DNA of 64,000 bases, from contig NZ_NWFK02000001.1 in assembly GCF_002313155.2 (NCBI RefSeq), positions 1 to 64,000 of the forward strand. Direction: 5' to 3'. Below are positions 39,612-48,353 of this stretch, piece by piece. The stretch is from Psychrobacter sp. FDAARGOS_221. Its GTDB lineage: Bacteria > Pseudomonadota > Gammaproteobacteria > Pseudomonadales > Moraxellaceae. Position 1 is the stretch's first letter. Each line of letters opens with the position of its first letter. A model generated the notes under the pieces. It saw only the letters and a list, made by a program, of their open reading frames with translations. It searched no databases and was not told where the DNA came from. The position numbers were made by a program, and so were the translations under genes.

Positions 39612-40031
39612 GTGAGTACAGCGATAACATGGCAAGGCTTGGCTGATTGTAGAGCGCTTTTTGCAAGATTGCGTGAGCAGACTGACGACTTGACCCCAAT
39701 ACTCGACACCATTGGTCATGAGCTCACTGAAAGTACAAAAGAGCGTATCGCTGATGAAAAGAAAACGCCTGAAGGCACAGCGTGGAAACCTCTCACTGAA
39801 AAGTACGCCAGATATAAAAGCCGAAAATCAAGCGGTGGCTTACTTGTATATACAGGCATGTTATTGCAATCAATTACATACAACGTGCCTACTCAACGCA
39901 AAGTAGTGGTTGGTGCAACTGAAGAATATGCTAAATATGTCCAAGCAGAACGTCCATTTTTGGGGATTAGTAATGATGACAGCAACGCCATTATCAAGCA
40001 CATTAAGCGAGCATTAAGAGATGCAAATTAG
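39612..40031 (+). CDS. Mu gpG-like virion morphogenesis protein
   Basis: 139 residues with a GTG start; the nearby ATG reads ATG TGA. WQGLADCRALFARLREQTDD, LDTIGHELTESTKERIADEK, GTAWKPLTEKYARYKSRKS and YAKYVQAERPFLGIS are family features (phage virion morphogenesis, tail-completion role). The upstream sequence ATTTAAAAAGGGTTT occurs twice, 21 bases apart, duplicating the ribosome-binding region. Overlaps the next gene by 11 bases. Confidence 0.85.
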   Translation: MSTAITWQGLADCRALFARLREQTDDLTPILDTIGHELTESTKERIADEKKTPEGTAWKPLTEKYARYKSRKSSGGLLVYTGMLLQSITYNVPTQRKVVVGATEEYAKYVQAERPFLGISNDDSNAIIKHIKRALRDAN

Positions 40032-40461
40032 ACAACAAATCGCCCAGCGTATCAATGACTATGACCAAGCTCATGACCAGTTATTTATTGAGGTTGCTGA
40101 CAGCGGGCAACTTGATGAGGTGCTAAGAAACCGAAGTACAACTGAAGCTTGTTATGTCATCAAATTGGAAACGCAAGCGCAAAGCCAAAGCGAATACTAT
40201 CAAGCCGTTACGGAGCGTTATCAGATTATTACTATTTGCAGTAACTACACAGATAGCTATGGTGCAGCGGTTGGTGAACGTGCGGAAGCCATGCAAGATA
40301 CGGTGTTTAACGCTATTAGTGGCTTTATTTGTACTAAAAAAGGTGACACCACTGACCCGCTCAAGTTTGTCACTGGCGGACTGGTCGATCTAAAAGACAG
40401 CTTGCACGTGTGGGCGGACATATATGAGCTGGGCTATACCCAACAAATTAATCAGCAATAA
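40021..40461 (+). CDS. Mu gp37-like protein (DUF1834), tail-terminator type
   Basis: 146 residues. MQIRQQIAQRINDYDQAHDQ, YYQAVTERYQIITICSNYTD and LHVWADIYELGYTQQINQQ fit the gp37/DUF1834 family of tail-terminator-like proteins. The gene comes immediately before the tail tube, as expected. Confidence 0.75.
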   Translation: MQIRQQIAQRINDYDQAHDQLFIEVADSGQLDEVLRNRSTTEACYVIKLETQAQSQSEYYQAVTERYQIITICSNYTDSYGAAVGERAEAMQDTVFNAISGFICTKKGDTTDPLKFVTGGLVDLKDSLHVWADIYELGYTQQINQQ

Positions 40462-40472
40462 AGGAGTAAATG

Positions 40473-41405
40473 ATGCCACAAGTTGCATTAAGTCGTAAAT
40501 TCAAGAAAAAGCTATTGCTATGGGGTATTGGTGACCTCGCCGCTAACGAGCTGACACCCGTTGAAACTAAGGATGTCGATATTAGCTTTGAAGGTGACAC
40601 CATCGAGCAAGAAAAAGACGGTGAAAGCTGGGGTGCTAACAAGAAGTTTCGTACAACAGATAAGGTCAAAATCACAGGTAAAGTCGCATTTGCAGCAAGT
40701 GGCACCGCCGGTACCGCCCCTGCTTATCGTGACTTGTTCTTGATGGCTGGGCATAGTGAAACTGTATCAGAAGAAGGAAGTACAGTCACTTATACGCCTG
40801 AAACCACAGACACCAATCATGGCACCGTGGCGTTTTTACTCGATGGGCAGTTTCACATTGGCAAAAAGGCCCAAGCTGAAGTCAAACTATCAGCGAACAG
40901 TGGCGAACTTGGCTACTGGGAGTTTGAAATTAGCATGGTAGGCGGTACTGTGCCAATCGAAAAACCGAGCGACTTAAATACAATCGTTGAAGGTTATAAA
41001 ACACCAAAAGCGGTTAACTTCGCTAACACGCCTGTATTTAAGCTGGGTAATAAAGACTATGCCATGAAAAGCTTCAGCCACACCACAGGCAATGAGGTGA
41101 CCTCGCTTGATATGGTCAACCACCAATCATCCATGATTAGTGACCGCAAACCTGTGGTTTCTATTACCGTTGGTGCGCCGCAATTAAGCGAGATTAACTT
41201 ATATCAAAAAGCCTGGGACGGTGAAGAAATGCCATTGGTGCTTGAGCACGGCACCACGGCCGGTCAGAAAATCAAACTGGACTATCCAGCGGTAGCTTTA
41301 GATATCCCCAAAGCGACCGATATGGACGGTGCATTGGGCTACGAGATTGAGTGCAGCGTCATGCAATCAGCAAGCAAGCCACCATACACCATTGTATTTA
41401 GTTAA
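40473..41405 (+). CDS. Phage major tail (tube) protein
   Basis: 310 residues from the second of two consecutive ATG codons, which is six bases from AGGAG and so preferred. Beta-rich protein of siphophage tube type: KKLLLWGIGDLAANELTPVE, KITGKVAFAASGTAGTAPAY (read in two parts), GTVAFLLDGQFHIGKKAQAE and LEHGTTAGQKIKLDYPAVAL. The tail tube of transposable siphophages is of this kind, and there is no contractile sheath gene, so the tail is non-contractile. Confidence 0.75.
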   Translation: MPQVALSRKFKKKLLLWGIGDLAANELTPVETKDVDISFEGDTIEQEKDGESWGANKKFRTTDKVKITGKVAFAASGTAGTAPAYRDLFLMAGHSETVSEEGSTVTYTPETTDTNHGTVAFLLDGQFHIGKKAQAEVKLSANSGELGYWEFEISMVGGTVPIEKPSDLNTIVEGYKTPKAVNFANTPVFKLGNKDYAMKSFSHTTGNEVTSLDMVNHQSSMISDRKPVVSITVGAPQLSEINLYQKAWDGEEMPLVLEHGTTAGQKIKLDYPAVALDIPKATDMDGALGYEIECSVMQSASKPPYTIVFS

Positions 41406-41480
41406 CTCATCAATCCAACTCTAACCTAGCAGTTAACCCGTTTAACTGCTTTTAAACCCACTTAAATTAGGAATAAAACC

Positions 41481-41861
41481 ATGTTTAAACTTAGCGATGT
41501 CACCGATACCTATCCTTGGACAGTAACTATTAAGATGCCACATAACGGCAGTTATAAAAAGACAACTGTAAAAGTGGACTTTAACCGTTTACCACATGAT
41601 GAACGTATGCGTTTAATGGAGCGTATCCAAACAACGCAAGACGTTGAAAGCGTAGAAGAAGTTGAAAACGACTTCTTTGATAAGGTCTTTGCTGGTTGGC
41701 ATGCAGGTCAAGTGAAAGATGAGAATGGTGACGACTTAGAAGTTACTGACGATACTAAACGCCAAGTGCTGACTATTTCAGAGTTTCGCCAAGCTGTTAT
41801 TGATGGCTACTTTGACAGTGTGGCTGGTGACAAGCTAAAGCAAAAAAACTCCATGCGCTAG
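41481..41861 (+). CDS. Tail assembly chaperone, lambda gpG-like
   Basis: 126 residues. Sits between tail tube and tape measure, the G position. TVKVDFNRLPHDERMRLMER and FFDKVFAGWHAGQVKDENGD are in the style of gpG-like chaperones. The last codons CAA AAA AAC TCC ATG CGC TAG include the slippery heptamer A AAA AAC (41843-41849), allowing a fraction of ribosomes to enter the -1 frame and make a G-GT fusion. Confidence 0.82.
   Translation: MFKLSDVTDTYPWTVTIKMPHNGSYKKTTVKVDFNRLPHDERMRLMERIQTTQDVESVEEVENDFFDKVFAGWHAGQVKDENGDDLEVTDDTKRQVLTISEFRQAVIDGYFDSVAGDKLKQKNSMR
41843..41849 (+). promoter_or_regulatory. Programmed -1 ribosomal frameshift site (G/GT)
   Basis: A AAA AAC in the zero frame of the G-like gene, 12 bases before its stop. 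After a -1 shift the frame reads CTC CAT GCG CTA GGT AGT CAT and runs without stop into the 41870-42214 frame. Phase check: 41481 is phase 0 and 41870 is phase 2, which is -1. Confidence 0.85.
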
Positions 41862-41869
41862 GTAGTCAT

Positions 41870-42214
41870 GTGGCTTGTCAACGGCAAGCCTATCAAACCT
41901 ACCTAGCCGACCAACAAGCCCTTGATGACGCATTTGCAGAGTTTGGCGTTGAAGCAGAAAAAGAAGAGTTTGAATTTGAAGTGATGACAATATGGCGTGA
42001 GTTTGAACCAATCTTGCCGTTATTTGACTACATTGTATTACAGCACAATAGCTTTAACGGTCATGTTATGGGGATTGATTGGATTGCAGTAGATATTTTG
42101 CTAAGACGAGAAGATGTCACTGTAACGCCAGATGACTTTGCAAACTTTAGAGCCGCCACCGATGGCTATGTGAATAGCATCAATGAGCATTTAACACATG
42201 GCTCTACAGCCTAA
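41870..42214 (+). CDS. GT extension of the tail assembly chaperone (DUF1799-like)
   Basis: 114 residues from a GTG, but probably expressed only as the C-terminal part of the G-GT fusion; it has no good ribosome-binding site. ALDDAFAEFGVEAEKEEFEF, VMTIWREFEPILPLFDYIV and GIDWIAVDILLRREDV match the DUF1799-type proteins found right before tape measures. Confidence 0.82.
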   Translation: MACQRQAYQTYLADQQALDDAFAEFGVEAEKEEFEFEVMTIWREFEPILPLFDYIVLQHNSFNGHVMGIDWIAVDILLRREDVTVTPDDFANFRAATDGYVNSINEHLTHGSTA

Positions 42215-42277
42215 ACAGTAAACAGCTTTAATAATACTCAGCAAGCCCAGTGTTTATCTTAAACACTGGGCTTTTTG
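42211..42277 (+). terminator. Strong terminator before the tape measure gene, with a weak promoter-box copy
   Basis: Stem AGCCCAGTGTTTA / TAAACACTGGGCT plus T run (42244-42277). Immediately upstream, 42211-42234 (ACAGTAAACAGCTTTAATAA in its core) resembles the conserved late-promoter box, and 18 bases further is TTTATCTT, inside the hairpin. A strong terminator within the tail operon needs either read-through or a fresh promoter to express the tape measure. Confidence 0.7.
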
Positions 42278-42300
42278 TATTTATATTAAAGGATAAATAA

Positions 42301-45300
42301 ATGGCTGAAGAGCTAAAGTTTGGGCTAGTTATATCTGCTGACGGCACAGCAGCGATACGTACACTTGAAGAACTTGAAGACGGTCTAAATGACGTTGATA
42401 AGACGTCAGACAAGGCAGGCAAAAGCACAAGCACAACGTTTGATACGATGCGACAACGTGCAATGAGTTTCGGTGGCACGCTAGCCAACGTAGCTAAAAA
42501 AGTAACCATGTTTGGCGGTGTAGTTGGTACGTTGGCAGGTGCGTTAAGTTTAAATTCTCTCGTAGATACTCAACGTCAGTTTGATGTGCTTAACTCTCAG
42601 CTTGTTACAGCAACAGGCGGAACAAAAGAAGCGGCTGCTGCATTCGATGAGTTGACTAAGTTTGCATCAACAACGCCTTATGCTCTGGAGCAATCTGTCA
42701 GTGGGTTTGTGCAGCTCAAAAACTTAGGCTTAGATCCAAGCATGCGTAGTATGCAAAGCTACGGCAACTTTGCAGCGGCTATGGGTAAAGACTTAAATCA
42801 GATGATTGAAGCCGTTGCTGATGCGTCTACATTTGAGTTTGAGCGATTAAAAGAGTTTGGTATCAAAGCTAGTCAGCAAGGCAATAAAGTAGCGTTTACT
42901 TTCCAAGGCGTCACTACAACGGTTGGTAAAAATTCAAAAGAAATTCAGGAATATCTATTAGCTATCGGTGAGACAAAGTTTGGTGATGCGATGGCTAACC
43001 GAGCCAAGACCTTGGATGGTGCGCTTAGTAATTTGGGTGACAACTTCAATAGTTTGAAGCTGGCGGTAGTGCAATCAGGTATTGGTGATGTCATACAAGA
43101 CATCGTTATCAGAGCGTCTGACGGTCTAGCAAGGATGACAGATGCGTTGAGAGAGCCTGAAAACGCCGCTAAGCTCAAAAGTGCTATTGAGTCAGTAGGT
43201 GATGCTTTTAATCAACTGCAAGGCTTTGTTGATCAAGCAAAAGATGTTATTGCGCATGTCATCGAAGTAATGAGCCAACCTGAGAATATCGAAAGAATGC
43301 ATAGTGCATTGGATGCGCTGGGTGATGCTTTTAATGATTTGAAAGATTTTGCATCACAAACAATTGATGTCATCGGTCAAGTAACAGATTTTTTAATTGA
43401 TAACAAAGAGATTGTTATCGCGTTAGCGAGCGGTGTTGCGGCGGCAGCGTCCGCATTTTTGTTATTAAACGGTGTGATTGCTGCTTGGACAGCAATTGGT
43501 ACAGCAGCAACCGCAGTAACTACGGCATTTGGTATTGCTGTCGGTATTGCCACCAGTCCAGTCACTCTGATATTAGCAGCAATCGCAGGCTTAGTCGCTG
43601 TCGGTGTCTATTTATACCGCAACTGGGATGAGTTGTCTGCAAAAGCAAGTGAAGTCTGGCAAGGCATCAAAAACTATGTGTCTGAAGCGTGGGAAGGTGT
43701 TAAAGCCAAGACGTCCGAAGTATGGGAAGGCATCAAGAGTAAAGTAGCCGAAGTATGGGACGGCATCAAGCAGAAAGTTGTCGATACTGTGGCGGGCTTA
43801 CCGCAGCCGGTGCAAGACATGATTACCAATATACAGTCTATGTTTACTGGTATCAAAGATCTGGCTGTTGCTGCTTTTGAGTTTGTTGCAGACAAGGCAC
43901 TGTGGGCTGTCGAACAAATTACTGTCATTTGGCAAGGCGCAAAAGAAGTCTTTAGCACGGTTTGGGATGGCCTGTCAGCGGCTGCATCTGTTGTATTTGA
44001 GAGTATCAAAGGTGTTGTAGCGACTGGCTGGGAAGCGATTAAGTCAACTGTGAGTGCTGGTGTTGATATCGTTGTATCAGTGACTAAAGTTGCGTTTGAT
44101 GGTTTAAAGACCGCCATATCAAATACATGGGATGGTATAAAAGCCTTTGCCAGAGATGGTTGGCAGGCCTTAAAAGCTATCTTTACAGCAGGCATTACCG
44201 CTGTCGCTATTGTATTTAACACAGGGTTTAATACGGTTAAAACGGTTGTTAAAACTGCTTTTAATGCGATTAAAGCGCTGGCAAAAGGCGATATTGAGGG
44301 CTTTAAAACAACGATTAAATCAGGGCTGGATAAGCTAAAAGGCATTGCTAAAACAGCAATCAGTCAGTTTGTTGATGCATTTGGCACTTTGGGATCTAAG
44401 CTGTTGCAGATTGGACGGGATGCTGTACAAGGTCTCATTAATGGTGTTAAGGAAAAAATCAGCGGTGCGATTGATGTTGCTCGCAATTTAGCAAGTAGTG
44501 TCAGCGATACTGTCAAAAACTTCTTTGTCATCCGATCGCCATCAAGACTATTTAAAAAGTTTGGTGAATGGCTGTCAATAGGCTTGGGCTTGGGTATTAA
44601 AGGCAAGCAAAGCGAGGCTGTACAAGCGGCGCTAAATCTGGCTCAAAATATCTATAATGCGATGAGTGGCATTAAAAAAGACATCGCTTTATTCGGCAAA
44701 AATAGTGAGTTAGCCAGCTTTGATTATGACCGTGCAAACGGTATGTATAAGGGTATCAAAGACAGCGTATTAAACAGCTATCGCAATTTAATCAAAGCAA
44801 AAGAAGATTTAATCAAACTGGATGCCGAAATAAACAAAGTAAATGAGTTTACGATTCGACAGCAAACGTCTTTAGAGCAGTATGCGTTTGAAACATCGCT
44901 GATCGGCAAGCAAGCCGATGAAGTTGAGCGCTTGCGGTTTAGTCACAACCTACTTAATCAAGCCAAACAAGATGGCAAAGATTTATCTGAGCAAGCCCAA
45001 CAGCAGTTGTTGGCAACCACACAACAAATCATTGCTCAGCGTGAAGAATTGGTTGCTTTACGCACTAAGAAACAAGAAGCTGAAAAGATGGCAGACTTTA
45101 CTGCTCGACAGCAATCAGCTTTAGAAAAATACGCTTTTGAAACCTCACTGATTGGCAAGCAAGCCGATGAGGTTGAACGCTTGCGCTTTGAACGTAACTT
45201 GTTAAACCAAGCGGAGCAAGCAGGTATTACTTTATCAGAACAGGCAACCCAAAAAATCATAGCACAGCGTGAAGAACTGATTGAGCTACGCAAGCAACAG

Positions 45301-45978
45301 CAAGCGCTACAAGATAATAACTGGGTCGATGGATTGCAGTCAGGCTTTCAAAGCTTATCTGATGGCGCTAAGAGCTTGAATGAAACTATGCAACAGGCCA
45401 CGACTGGCGCCTTTAACAAAATGAGTGACAGCTTTAGTAACTTTGTGGCGACGGGCAAAGGCAGTTTTAAAGACTTAACCGCATCTATCTTACAAGATAT
45501 TAGTAAGATGCTGATTAAGTTTGCTATGTTACGTGTCGCTAAAATGGCTGTGGGTATGTTTGAAGACGGTGGTGCTTTTGCTGGCAGCGGTCTGCTTGAG
45601 CTTGCTAAAGGCGGTGCGTTTAATAATCAAGGCATCCAGTACTATGCCAATGGCGACATCTTTAATAAGCCAACAGCTTTCCGGCATGCTGGTGGTCTTG
45701 GTGTCATGGGTGAAGCAGGCCCTGAAGCGGTTATGCCATTAACTCGTGGACCTAATGGCAAGCTAGGTGTACAAGTCTTTAACAGCAAACAGAATAATCA
45801 ATCTGCTGGTGTTGTTAATCAAGTGAAGATTGATATACATATCAATAGTGACGGTGCTAGTGCAGACGTACAGACAACTACCCAAGACAGCAAACAACTT
45901 GCTGAGTCTTTAAAGGCAGTTGTGTTGCAAACGTTGCAGAACGAGATAAGACCAGGGGGAATGTTAGCCCCTGTCTAA
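42301..45978 (+). CDS. Tail tape measure protein
   Basis: 1225 residues, setting tail length. N-terminal coiled coil, a tape-measure core with LVDTQRQFDVLNSQLVTATG and TTPYALEQSVSGFVQLKNLG, hydrophobic segments at about 365-445, then Trp repeats around 455-500 (VSEAWEGVKAKTSEVWEGIK). Two copies of an 83-residue unit (DNA 44858 and 45107, 249 bp apart; YAFETSLIGKQADEVERLRF in both) form a helical segment. The C-terminus has FKDLTASILQDISKMLIKFA and GLGVMGEAGPEAVMPLTRGP, the lambda-type tape-measure end. Confidence 0.92.
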   Translation: MAEELKFGLVISADGTAAIRTLEELEDGLNDVDKTSDKAGKSTSTTFDTMRQRAMSFGGTLANVAKKVTMFGGVVGTLAGALSLNSLVDTQRQFDVLNSQLVTATGGTKEAAAAFDELTKFASTTPYALEQSVSGFVQLKNLGLDPSMRSMQSYGNFAAAMGKDLNQMIEAVADASTFEFERLKEFGIKASQQGNKVAFTFQGVTTTVGKNSKEIQEYLLAIGETKFGDAMANRAKTLDGALSNLGDNFNSLKLAVVQSGIGDVIQDIVIRASDGLARMTDALREPENAAKLKSAIESVGDAFNQLQGFVDQAKDVIAHVIEVMSQPENIERMHSALDALGDAFNDLKDFASQTIDVIGQVTDFLIDNKEIVIALASGVAAAASAFLLLNGVIAAWTAIGTAATAVTTAFGIAVGIATSPVTLILAAIAGLVAVGVYLYRNWDELSAKASEVWQGIKNYVSEAWEGVKAKTSEVWEGIKSKVAEVWDGIKQKVVDTVAGLPQPVQDMITNIQSMFTGIKDLAVAAFEFVADKALWAVEQITVIWQGAKEVFSTVWDGLSAAASVVFESIKGVVATGWEAIKSTVSAGVDIVVSVTKVAFDGLKTAISNTWDGIKAFARDGWQALKAIFTAGITAVAIVFNTGFNTVKTVVKTAFNAIKALAKGDIEGFKTTIKSGLDKLKGIAKTAISQFVDAFGTLGSKLLQIGRDAVQGLINGVKEKISGAIDVARNLASSVSDTVKNFFVIRSPSRLFKKFGEWLSIGLGLGIKGKQSEAVQAALNLAQNIYNAMSGIKKDIALFGKNSELASFDYDRANGMYKGIKDSVLNSYRNLIKAKEDLIKLDAEINKVNEFTIRQQTSLEQYAFETSLIGKQADEVERLRFSHNLLNQAKQDGKDLSEQAQQQLLATTQQIIAQREELVALRTKKQEAEKMADFTARQQSALEKYAFETSLIGKQADEVERLRFERNLLNQAEQAGITLSEQATQKIIAQREELIELRKQQQALQDNNWVDGLQSGFQSLSDGAKSLNETMQQATTGAFNKMSDSFSNFVATGKGSFKDLTASILQDISKMLIKFAMLRVAKMAVGMFEDGGAFAGSGLLELAKGGAFNNQGIQYYANGDIFNKPTAFRHAGGLGVMGEAGPEAVMPLTRGPNGKLGVQVFNSKQNNQSAGVVNQVKIDIHINSDGASADVQTTTQDSKQLAESLKAVVLQTLQNEIRPGGMLAPV

Positions 45979-46046: not shown

Positions 46047-46634
46047 ATGATTAAGAAAATCCTAATTGGTTTTGGTTTATTTTTACTATTTATCCTAATA
46101 ATTGGCTTTTTTGCAGGTGAAGATACTACTGAAAGCCCAGAAGATAAAACGGTAGAGGCGACACCAGTAGAAATGACGGCTACAGAAACAGAAACGCCTG
46201 AAGTGGCACCTGAGCAAGTATCAGTAGAGCCAGAACCTGACATGACACCAACAGAGGTTGCACCCGTTGAAGACACCAAAACAGTAACACCACCTGCCAA
46301 AGTAGAAAAAGAAGCTAAAGAGGCTGAGACTGTAAAGCTGAAAGAAAAAAAAGCGGATGACGGCAAACTGTCTGATGCAAAAAAAGCCGAAATAATTGAG
46401 TATTTTAAGGGTAATGATGAACCGAATGTTCTTGATGCATTATTCCCTTATGACACATTAAAGTTAGGTATGCATAATGACAGCGGCAATCGTGACGGAT
46501 ATGCAGAGTATGCTTGCGAAGTGCTTAAATCAGACTTTAATGTTAAGCAGGCTGTTATTGTAAGAATTATTGATATTGATAAGCTTGTTAGCTCAGATAA
46601 ATGGGAAACCATCGGTGAGGCAAACTGTAACTAA
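46047..46634 (+). CDS. Membrane-anchored hypothetical protein (possible moron)
   Basis: 195 residues. One N-terminal membrane helix (IGFGLFLLFILIIGFFAG), then a long Glu/Pro/Thr/Val-rich linker (30-95), a basic stretch (VKLKEKKADDGKLSDAKK) and a small C-terminal domain with two Cys (YAEYACEVLKSDFNVKQAV and EANCN). Interrupts the tail operon between tape measure and the M-like gene and has its own terminator. Such anchored proteins in prophages can block superinfection, but there is no direct evidence. Family not recognised. Confidence 0.7.
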   Translation: MIKKILIGFGLFLLFILIIGFFAGEDTTESPEDKTVEATPVEMTATETETPEVAPEQVSVEPEPDMTPTEVAPVEDTKTVTPPAKVEKEAKEAETVKLKEKKADDGKLSDAKKAEIIEYFKGNDEPNVLDALFPYDTLKLGMHNDSGNRDGYAEYACEVLKSDFNVKQAVIVRIIDIDKLVSSDKWETIGEANCN

Positions 46635-46660: not shown

Positions 46661-46692
46661 CTCTTTTAACCAACCGTTAAAGGGGTTTTTTA
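46661..46692 (+). terminator. Terminator after the membrane-anchored protein
   Basis: Stem CTCTTTTAAC / GTTAAAGGGG, loop CAACC, then seven T. Seven bases further the second late-promoter box begins, so this is a transcription-unit boundary. Confidence 0.82.
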
Positions 46693-46698
46693 ATGCCT

Positions 46699-46749
46699 AA
46701 AAATCAGTAAATCACTTTAATAAAGATAATATAGTTTTAGAGCTATTAT
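46699..46749 (+). promoter_or_regulatory. Putative activator-dependent promoter (Pmom-like) before com
   Basis: Box at 46699-46723 differing from the 36211 copy at one base (T for C in the AAAYCAC part), then 18 bases, then GCTATTAT with a near-consensus -10 TATTAT at 46744-46749. Predicted start near 46756, giving a leader of about 140 bases. In Mu the com-mom operon also has its own C-dependent promoter. Confidence 0.62.
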
Positions 46750-46802
46750 AAGAATGTAGAACAAGCGGCCAGCAGATATTGACAGTATCTACTAGCCCCG
46801 CA

Positions 46803-46891
46803 GGTGAAAACACCACCATTGGCAAGGCTTGCCTCCCCGTACGGAGAACGCATAGCCTACCTATATTTTTTGTTAAAATCAATGGTGGTGT
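46803..46891 (+). promoter_or_regulatory. Structured 5' leader of com with mutually exclusive pairings
   Basis: CACCACCATT (46811-46820) is the exact complement of AATGGTGGTG (46881-46890), which contains the com ribosome-binding region five bases before the ATG; with flanking pairs the helix reaches 12-13 bp. The same CACC can instead close the hairpin GGTG-AAAA-CACC (46803-46814). Two more hairpins, GGCAA-GGC-TTGCC (46821-46833) and CTCC-CCGTAC-GGAG (46833-46846), lie inside the long-range helix. The layout is that of an on/off translational switch; the trigger is unknown. Confidence 0.55.
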
Positions 46892-46895
46892 AATT

Positions 46896-47120
46896 ATGCA
46901 ATCAATTAGATGCAAATCATGTAATAAGCTTTTAGCCAAAGCAAGATATCAACAGTTAGAAATCAAATGCCCTCGTTGTAAACTCTTAAATAAACTGAGC
47001 GTCAGGAACGCCTTACAAGAAGACCATGAGTCTCATACTATTCAGGTTAAGACTCGTGGACAATCAAATACCCAAGCTATACAACAAAGCACCAACTCCG
47101 TTTGTCGGTCAAAAACGTAA
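46896..47120 (+). CDS. com: Com, zinc-finger translational activator
   Basis: 74 residues from MQSIRCKSCNKLLAKARYQQ; with EIKCPRCKLLNKL it gives the CxxC...CxxC zinc site of Mu Com, which binds mRNA at the mom start and opens it for translation. An upstream in-frame ATG (46779) would add 39 residues encoded by the leader structure and is rejected. The gene overlaps the methyltransferase start by 65 bases, the com-mom arrangement. Confidence 0.88.
   Translation: MQSIRCKSCNKLLAKARYQQLEIKCPRCKLLNKLSVRNALQEDHESHTIQVKTRGQSNTQAIQQSTNSVCRSKT
47025..47058 (+). promoter_or_regulatory. Hairpin sequestering the methyltransferase GTG start
   Basis: CATGAGTCT (47025-47033) pairs with AGACTCGTG (47050-47058), nine consecutive pairs including one G-U, loop 16 bases. 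The 3' strand contains the GTG start codon (47056-47058) and the loop contains AGG. It corresponds to the inhibitory stem-loop at the Mu mom start that Com opens. Confidence 0.6.
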
Positions 47121-47904
47121 TTTTTTAAAAGCCTTTCGTCAAGTCATTACTGAACACATTAGTGATGGCGGTGAAGGCTGGACGATTATTGATGTCTTTG
47201 GCGGTAGTGGTTTATTAGCAAATAATGCTAAGCATCTATTGCCCAAAGCTCATGTTATCTATAACGACTTTGATGATTACAGCAGTAGATTGAGGAATAT
47301 AGCAGATACTAATAGGCTGCTTATACTTTTAACAGAGGTGCTTAAAGACTCACAACGAGGCAAAAAGCTATCTGTAGAAGTAAAAGCAAGGATCAAAGCT
47401 GTAGTTACTAGCTTTAATGGGTTTGTAGATTTGCAGACATTGAGCACTTGGTTGTTGTTTAGCGGTAAGCAAGTCAGCACGCTGGATGAGTTGTGGCAAC
47501 ATACGATGTATAACACTATTAGACGCACTCAATATCAAGGTGCTGATGGCTATTTTGATGGTATTGAGATAACTTGCGAATCATTTGAATCACTAATGCC
47601 AAAGCATCAAGATAGCGATAAGACACTGTTTATATTAGACCCACCTTATGTCAGCACTAAACAAGGGGCATATGCACTTGACGAATACTTTGGCATGGTG
47701 CAATTTTTAAAACTTATGAACTTAACTAGCCCTCCATATATTATGTTCAGTAGCACACGCAGCGAATTGTTAAGTTATTTAGACTATATAAAAGAGTTTG
47801 ATGCAAAGGCATGGGATAAGCTGGGCAACTATGATGTAATTAGTCAAACATCGAATATTAATAATAAAGCCCGCTATGTTGATAATATGATTTATAAGTT
47901 TTGA
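47056..47904 (+). CDS. D12-class adenine-specific DNA methyltransferase
   Basis: 282 residues from GTG. SAM-binding IIDVFGGSGLLANNAKHLL and catalytic LFILDPPYVSTKQGAYALDE with DPPY show an N6-adenine methylase of the Dam/D12 type; KAPTPFVGQKRNFLKAFRQV is the typical start with the conserved basic residues. It takes the place of mom behind com, as in some Haemophilus Mu-like prophages. Probably modifies phage DNA to evade host restriction. An upstream ATG in frame (47026) lies in the inhibitory hairpin. Recognition site unknown; no cognate nuclease nearby. Confidence 0.87.
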   Translation: MDNQIPKLYNKAPTPFVGQKRNFLKAFRQVITEHISDGGEGWTIIDVFGGSGLLANNAKHLLPKAHVIYNDFDDYSSRLRNIADTNRLLILLTEVLKDSQRGKKLSVEVKARIKAVVTSFNGFVDLQTLSTWLLFSGKQVSTLDELWQHTMYNTIRRTQYQGADGYFDGIEITCESFESLMPKHQDSDKTLFILDPPYVSTKQGAYALDEYFGMVQFLKLMNLTSPPYIMFSSTRSELLSYLDYIKEFDAKAWDKLGNYDVISQTSNINNKARYVDNMIYKF

Positions 47905-47928: not shown

Positions 47929-47959
47929 AGCCCTTGATATAACTATCAAGGGCTTTTTT
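47929..47959 (+). terminator. Terminator after the methyltransferase
   Basis: Stem AGCCCTTGATA / TATCAAGGGCT, 4-base loop, then T run. The third late-promoter box starts eight bases later. Confidence 0.88.
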
Positions 47960-47966
47960 AATGCCT

Positions 47967-48017
47967 AAAAATCAGTAAACCACATTAATAACCGCATAAC
48001 TCACGCCCTGCTAATCT
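47967..48017 (+). promoter_or_regulatory. Putative activator-dependent promoter (PP-like) before the tail-tip genes
   Basis: Box at 47967-47991 differing from the 36211 copy at one base (A for T in CACWTTAATAA), 18 bases, then GCTAATCT (48010-48017), identical to the one before the protease gene. ATG follows six bases after the -10-like TAATCT, again suggesting a leaderless mRNA. Confidence 0.6.
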
Positions 48018-48023
48018 AAGTAT

Positions 48024-48353
48024 ATGAAAACATTTACTTATGACATTGGCATACAAGCGGCAGGCAGCACTGACAACGATGTTGTGATTGTGCAATTTGG
48101 TGACGGCTATGCCCAGCGTCAGCCCAAAGGTCTTGCACCACGTTTAGAGCATTGGCAAGCAAGCAAAGTTGGCAATAAAGCCACTATTGATGAGATCAAA
48201 GCCTTCCTTGATGCACACACAGTAACGCCGTTTTTATGGCGTGTCACAAGTGATGAGCCTTTGCGTAAATACATAGCCAAAGATATATCACGCAGCCCAC
48301 AGGGTGGCAGTAAATGGACGCTGAATTGGACGATGCAACAAGTACTAGCGTAA
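48024..48353 (+). CDS. Minor tail protein, lambda gpM-like
   Basis: 109 residues. VVIVQFGDGYAQRQPKGLAP and FLWRVTSDEPLRKYIAKDIS are typical of gpM-type minor tail proteins, ending in a WTLNWTMQQV strand. First gene of the M-L-K-I-J tip module. No ribosome-binding site visible. Confidence 0.85.
   Translation: MKTFTYDIGIQAAGSTDNDVVIVQFGDGYAQRQPKGLAPRLEHWQASKVGNKATIDEIKAFLDAHTVTPFLWRVTSDEPLRKYIAKDISRSPQGGSKWTLNWTMQQVLA

Follow-up and report, generated by a model that had tools for sequence, protein, structure and literature searches.

DNA modification protects phages against restriction and must be timed, and the control of such modification that has, to our knowledge, been studied in detail is that of the com/mom operon of phage Mu. 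There, according to the passages of PMC6483171 that deal with this control, Com binds an RNA hairpin beside a translation-inhibition structure and activates the translation of mom. The leader RNA analysed here, found in a Psychrobacter prophage, is similar to the Mu system in belonging to a phage DNA-modification operon with a Com zinc ribbon and in containing a start-site-hiding RNA helix, but the TIS helix of Mu is located at mom, the second gene, where Com opens it (as described in the same passages of PMC6483171), whereas leaders of the present family carry a 110-nt pseudoknotted domain ahead of the first gene.

With the 4227 models of Rfam 15 no family exceeded its gathering score at the leader of the window (by which we mean the whole stretch of 64,000 nucleotides analysed), and none exceeded its cut-off at a leader in 34 related loci, 32 of them leader-bearing; the matches seen at leaders (folP, SymR, TCV_Pr, P26) are below threshold and concern the opposite strand. 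The likeness of D12-methyl (RF02950, 64 positions) to the leader is one of name, which we take to point to D12 methyltransferases, and identity with it was rejected, as the model exceeded its cut-off (57 bits) in none of 13 leader-bearing genomes and its weak places were not at leaders. Translational riboswitches of the preQ1-II type combine an H-type pseudoknot containing an inserted hairpin with sequestration of the ribosome site. The leader is alike in all these respects, but differs in that its loop 1 holds two additional hairpins, that P5 is a helix of its own and that phage DNA-modification genes lie behind it. Similarly, the guanidine-II riboswitch, in the part of PMC7357161 that describes its loops, is comparable in having self-complementary tetraloop bases that could pair from loop to loop, whereas the leader family has four self-complementary bases, which occur in nine sequences, one such loop per RNA, and other genes. 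A first-pass annotation of this DNA had stated that no description of such a leader was known; consistent with this, we found none in the open-access papers searched and none in Rfam, and we rate the leader as a new RNA family exerting a known kind of control.

The cassette and its prophage

The window is the start of a 3.16-Mb single-contig Psychrobacter genome. On its forward strand the leader core, comprising P1, P2, P2b, P3 and P4, occupies 46757-46865 (positions 1-112 of the covariance model R2, see below) and is followed at 46896-47120 by com, which encodes a zinc ribbon Com of 74 aa (PF10122, E 1.3e-9; phrog_13819 gpCom), so that the operon has a Com gene as does the com/mom system of Mu. 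The end of com is overlapped by the gene for a D12-class adenine DNA methyltransferase (47026-47904, forward strand; PF02086, E 2.1e-8), behind which the fold gives a terminator-like hairpin with a T run (47929-47954, forward strand). The cassette of leader, com and methyltransferase sits within the tail region of a prophage, between an upstream ORF of 1225 aa (42301-45978), by reading of its sequence a putative tape-measure protein, and a downstream minor tail protein (48024-48353, PF05939). It is enclosed by a 44-nt direct repeat on the forward strand, one copy of which (46680-46723, the end of a terminator-like hairpin and an AT-rich tail) precedes the leader while the other (47948-47991) closes the cassette. 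These copies are identical at 41 of 44 positions, and the cassette looks like an inserted moron and the repeat would be the scar of its insertion. The leader is present twice in this genome (G000), in identical copies, the second belonging to a prophage stretch (C1:2789000-2808000) in the opposite orientation that is 99.96% identical over 17.9 kb. A simple scan found no promoter before the window leader.

Two further observations concern the surroundings. A partial third prophage match lies at 678733-681251 of the same genome (96% to window 40000-42518), and the ORF before the cassette (46047-46634, 195 aa) has a product with a hydrophobic stretch at the N-terminus and a linker rich in proline and acidic residues, its sole match, in the absence of one in Pfam, being phrog_7191 (function not known).

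A family of structured leaders

Relatives were gathered through the methyltransferase and Com, and in many of them about 110 nt of like layout stand directly before com. A first covariance model, R1, built from ten leaders, recovers remote leaders (L067 at 3.4e-9, L129 at 3.5e-8, L074 at 8.3e-8) and does not find the window leader at E<=1; the second, R2, built from 24 related leaders with the window excluded, has the window leader (46757-46865; 33.9 bits, E 1.5e-7) as its sole match up to E 10 in the 64 kb, the E-values of both models being rough. R2 matches 86 of 99 chosen sources (23 of the 86 being members of the training set) and none of the eight picked as negatives because no leader was seen; these eight, together with L121, L183, L194, L225 and L237, which are leader-like by eye, make up the 13 sources without a match. 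The com region of Mu likewise has no R2 match. Alignment A9 was made from 88 matches, of which the opposite-strand second matches in L167 and L174 (17.7 and 19.2 bits) were dropped to leave 86 sources, and because certain sources represent one locus, or nearly so, we used 60 clusters formed at about 80% identity. One of them, L191, scores 24.1 bits and probably does not belong to the family. In early MAFFT alignments P2 of the more distant leaders was wrongly placed, and a DNA similarity search of phages with the leader gave nothing useful. As judged from these sequence comparisons, the window leader belongs to a widespread RNA family preceding phage DNA-modification genes, of which it is a divergent member, its P2 loop and UANCA tail deviating from the consensus.

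The order of elements in the family is P1 5', P2, P2b, P3 5', P1 3', P4, P3 3' with the UANCA tail, a linker and the ribosome-binding site; since the P1 3' strand thus stands between the strands of P3, P1 and P3 make an H-type pseudoknot. In the window, on the forward strand, P1 pairs CAAGC (46762-46766) with GCTTG (46827-46831), supported by its letters and by the family; the P2 hairpin (46767-46797; core stem 46774-46778 with 46786-46790) is found in the fold, by R2 and as a family helix; P3 pairs AGGC (46825-46828) with GCCT (46855-46858); and the P4 hairpin spans 46833-46846. Two bases are common to P3 and P1, which compete for them.

Across A9, 89.3% of 2158 cells are paired, compared with 28-40% in slid versions, and changes on both sides occur at all 26 counted pairs, P2 being paired in 90.4% and P2b in 93.4% of cells, although the counts for P2, P2b, P3 and P4 lean towards the model to which A9 was fitted. 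P1, which is outside the model, is paired in 75.1% of cells (33-56% when slid) and has a covariation score of 0.446 against 0.173 for shuffled alignments (reached by 0/500), while two of its five measures are not significant, the number of double-change pairs being reached by 142/500 shuffles and that of further pair types by 56/500. When own and swapped partners are compared, P1 has z -8.0 and P3 z -4.8, and RNAalifold on an early alignment also picks P1 and P4; in RNAfold of single leaders P1 cannot appear. Pairing of the P1 5' strand with bases after P2 was considered and is unsupported (z +0.2).

Conservation extends to bases outside these helices. The UANCA tail is nearly invariant (U in 56, A in 59, C in 56 and A in 50 of 60 clusters), the window having UACCU (P3 3' strand and tail together at 46855-46862, forward strand), and A stands at position 5 in 47 of the 48 clusters with six-base P2 loops. 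With all loop lengths counted, the P2 loop ends are C...A in 42/60 clusters and U...G in 8/60. C-A and U-G wobble pairs resemble each other in shape, and the loop ends therefore look like a conserved closing pair.

The genes behind the leader were surveyed by genome searches with the RNA alone, which gave 8 matches in 7 of 145 relatives (E<=0.01), 9 matches in 9 of 369 genomes of the class (E<=0.001) and 16 matches in 12 of 398 genomes of the phylum (E<=0.001); with one match common to two samples there are 32 loci, three of which (L144, L147, L149) coincide in place or sequence with the training leaders L003, L071 and L142. These counts are lower bounds, since the whole-genome searches miss G000, whose leader scores E 1.5e-7 directly, and their filters thus lose members. 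Behind 30 of the 32 loci there is either com (15) or, directly, a DNA methyltransferase (15), while of the remaining two one stops at a contig end and the other has no recognised gene. By Pfam the fifteen direct methyltransferases are 11 D12 (PF02086), 3 N4/N6 (PF01555) and 1 C5 (PF00145), while the fifteen com genes are followed by 11 D12 and 1 N4/N6 enzymes, by 2 proteins with ABC-ATPase and GNAT matches, and in L150 by a gene without a Pfam match that is nevertheless 67% identical to the window methyltransferase; C5 enzymes also occur among the loci recruited through Com (L082, L064). An RNA structure with compensatory changes is thus found upstream of one functional class of genes. The annotation's 'controlling com' is too narrow, because with 15 of 32 leaders directly before a methyltransferase the RNA goes with phage DNA-modification genes generally.

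Such leaders are present in 11 of 15 tested loci of named com phages (chosen from 42 records, L056 among them being in the training set), namely in Moraxella phages Mcat1 and Mcat3, Burkholderia phages KS5 and Mana, Curvibacter phage TJ1 and Pseudomonas phages B3, UMP151, JD024, PAN70, Bise and Komp_PAO1_1, and no leader was found among these 15 at the com loci of Mu, Chuche, Smp131 and Carl1. Occurrence in named phages of four host genera and in genome samples up to phylum level, before several families of modification enzyme, points to a common RNA-level timing device.

Some individual loci deserve mention. In L146, L147 and L192 a protein with ABC-ATPase and GNAT parts takes the methyltransferase's place after com (in L092 the ATPase part only), that of L146 also matching phrog_11143 (function not known); these are possibly a further type of phage DNA-modification enzyme. 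In L171 the C5 methyltransferase ORF directly after the leader starts with a Com-like CxxC stretch and is a possible Com-enzyme fusion. L078, L087, L127 and L244 (Mu) have several GATC/GATCGAT sites before com in place of an RNA leader, suggesting that the leader and Dam-type transcription control may be alternatives.

Pairing over the start site

The annotation's central observation was that CACCACCATT (46811-46820) is a perfect complement of AATGGTGGTG (46881-46890) at the ribosome-binding region of com, and both letters and coordinates are correct. The complementarity extends to 13 pairs, 12 Watson-Crick and one G-U, between the P5 5' strand ACACCACCATTGG (46810-46822) and the 3' strand TCAATGGTGGTGT (46879-46891), which covers the ribosome-binding region (both forward strand), with a stacking energy of -25.2 kcal/mol that is matched by 1 of 3000 dinucleotide shuffles. 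The alternative hairpin GGTG-AAAA-CACC (GGTGAAAACACC, 46803-46814, forward strand) is likewise as the annotation gave it; this is P2b, whose 3' strand is overlapped by the P5 5' strand and which therefore competes with P5. Its 'two more hairpins' enclosed by the long helix were about right, the minimum free energy fold having a P3/P4 stem and a weak A-U hairpin there. The 156-nt window leader is more stable than its shuffles (z -3.6, 0/200). A translational switch between the two helices had been proposed, and both helices covary across the family; the balance in the naked RNA is uneven, however, the long helix being clearly ahead in folds without pseudoknots (-45.0 kcal/mol, against -32.9 with 46879-46891 forced single-stranded).

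Across the family, P5 was assessed by taking, in 58 of the 60 clusters (in L126 and L191 the script found no start), the strongest gap-free helix that the P2b region can form with the bases from -25 to +9 relative to the start. The mean for own partners is -13.49 kcal/mol compared with -10.05 (sd 0.31) for permuted ones (z -11.2, 0/10000), while other regions in the same test give z -2.5 (P2), -2.1 (P4/P3b), +1.2 (upstream sequence) and +2.7 (P1 strand), the first two of these controls thus leaning slightly in the same direction. With 60 downstream bases in place of the start region, P5 has z -7.4 and the P2 control -2.9; the corresponding own-versus-swapped test with RNAduplex (P5 z -8.7, P4/P3b control -3.3) is noisy because it admits long gapped duplexes, for which reason gap-free helices were used. 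The pairs themselves vary widely, for example GTGAGCC/GGCTCAC, GTGAACC/GGTTCAC, TGCAAGC/GCTTGCA, CAAAAGC/GCTTTTG, GTGAATCA/TGATTCAC, CTGCATAT/ATATGCAG and GGCAACACC/GGTGTTGCC, and in L150, by eye the most window-like member, AACCACCATTG/CAATGGTGGTT. Family permutations and window shuffles together rule out chance complementarity in a single leader, and the annotation's structured leader is borne out by compensatory changes in both alternative helices, the covariation check that it proposed for the long helix included.

P5 is at least as strong as -9 kcal/mol in 50 of the 58 clusters. In 46 it touches positions -12 to +2 of the start, so that there the alternative helix covers the start codon or ribosome-binding site, and in 41 it shares at least 2 bases with a P2b strand. 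Of the 17 that deviate, 8 have a P5 weaker than -9 kcal/mol and 9 overlap P2b by fewer than 2 bases; the start codons chosen by the script are doubtful in L071 and L004, where the listed helix misses pairing visible by eye. At the level of these predicted pairings the P5/P2b alternative is a conserved feature, though some members could form P5 and most of P2b at the same time.

Our preferred reading, to which we assign a probability of roughly two in three, is that the RNA acts in cis as a translational leader, keeping a phage DNA-modification operon off by default until the pseudoknot domain is stabilised. Comparison of the sequences establishes the domain with its pseudoknot as well as P5 and, for most clusters, the overlap of P2b with P5; the terminator-like hairpin behind the window cassette also counts in favour. 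The sensor domain P1-P2-P2b-P3-P4 would fold with P1/P3 as an H-type pseudoknot, or alternatively the P2b 3' strand (or, in certain members, the 5' strand plus the loop), together with neighbouring bases, would pair with the ribosome-binding site or start codon as P5, presumably the default OFF state. A trans-acting factor may then stabilise the pseudoknot domain, such that P2b stays closed and the start site open, and com and/or the modification enzyme would be made at the right time of phage growth. Since the leader can hide the ribosome-binding site, it probably helps decide when the phage starts marking its DNA. The open state of the window leader lies about 12 kcal/mol above P5, too much for a weak ligand to flip the leader once folded; switching would call for a strong factor or for folding kinetics. 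Since the genes behind the leader encode members of three methyltransferase families and an ATPase/GNAT-type protein, the trigger is probably neither Com in general nor the product of one enzyme.

Candidate triggers

One candidate is suggested by P4, the central four bases of which, with the centre picked from the stem alone, are self-complementary in 50 of 60 clusters, compared with 6.8% expected from composition, whereas the same procedure gives 4/60 for P2 and 1/60 for the P2b region; the nominal binomial value of 1.7e-48 is not a true probability, as the clusters are not fully independent. Nine palindromes occur (GTAC, TCGA, CGCG, TGCA, GATC, ACGT, GCGC, AGCT and CCGG). The P4 hairpin of the window includes the palindrome CCGTACGG (46837-46844), which is scored as non-palindromic with the script's centre, probably misplaced here as in L145 and L156, all three being so scored. 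This pattern hints at the kissing of two RNAs as its simplest reading, with a DNA-level site as another possible one. On such a model the P4 loops of two mRNAs would kiss and the dimer would stabilise the pseudoknot domain, so that translation would follow the amount of mRNA, as in late infection. The loops of the guanidine-II riboswitch, which kiss via two C-G pairs in the part of PMC7357161 concerned with them, offer a precedent, but several family members have non-palindromic P4 loops (ACGC in L150 and L159, AGCC in L018, GCAC in L069, L171 and L176), and a two-fold site at the DNA level would look alike. We consider this form of sensing tentative, at perhaps one chance in five expressed only as a guide, and hold equally loosely the wider proposal of a new class of phage regulatory RNA in which the P4 dimer, as a sensor of mRNA dosage or late infection, would free the start sites of DNA-modification genes independently of Com, enzyme family and phage type. 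If the P4 loops do dimerise, the sensing principle would be unusual.

Com itself was among the possible inputs suggested by the annotation, and could bind the leader of its own mRNA and open or close P5, as it acts on the mom mRNA of Mu. In support, Com is a known translational regulator with the Mu mom precedent (described in the relevant passages of PMC6483171), and com comes first after the leader at 15 of the 32 RNA-only loci, as it does in the window. The other 15 leaders, however, stand directly before a methyltransferase without a separate com (that of L171 starting Com-like), and in 13 genomes, which account for 14 of these 15, a search for Com gave nothing at E<=0.01 and two partial matches at 0.05 and 0.08, although the same search succeeds at E<1e-10 in all 13 genomes with com leaders. 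The leader is, moreover, missing at 4 of the 15 named com-phage loci, Mu among them. The window leader lacks the Mu Com motif CC(N)2-3GAG, which is depleted in com leaders (4/43, with 13 expected), while com-less leaders have it in 6/15 (5.7 expected); Coms other than that of Mu may bind another motif. With com-less leaders in genomes where no Com was found, Com is probably not the general sensor, and autoregulation by Com is in our view unlikely.

Just as doubtful is a small-molecule riboswitch (for SAM or SAH, for example) giving feedback on DNA methylation. The methyltransferases found downstream use SAM, as DNA methyltransferases do, and the pseudoknot is aptamer-like, with nearly invariant unpaired bases in the UANCA tail and at position 5 of the P2 loop; on the other hand, an ABC-ATPase/GNAT protein replaces the methyltransferase after com in the loci noted above, and leaders gave no match over cut-off to any Rfam model, those of riboswitches included.

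That P4 is instead a DNA-level element (an operator, recombination or methylation site) with incidental RNA folding is very improbable, for although P4 is often a perfect DNA palindrome and Mu has GATC-containing sites upstream of com instead, covariation as RNA helices is seen for P1, P2, P2b, P3 and P5, in the last case involving the ribosome-binding region of the gene that follows, and CGCG or GCGC precedes D12 adenine methyltransferases in L163, L164, L166 and L168. The narrower idea that the palindrome is the methyltransferase's own site is out, these palindromes being adenine-free.

As a minor observation, one com-recruited locus carries a second structured RNA: in L082 the Rfam family Pseudomonadales-1 lies at 2138-2305 (79.9 bits, over its cut-off), upstream of the leader at 2362-2472.
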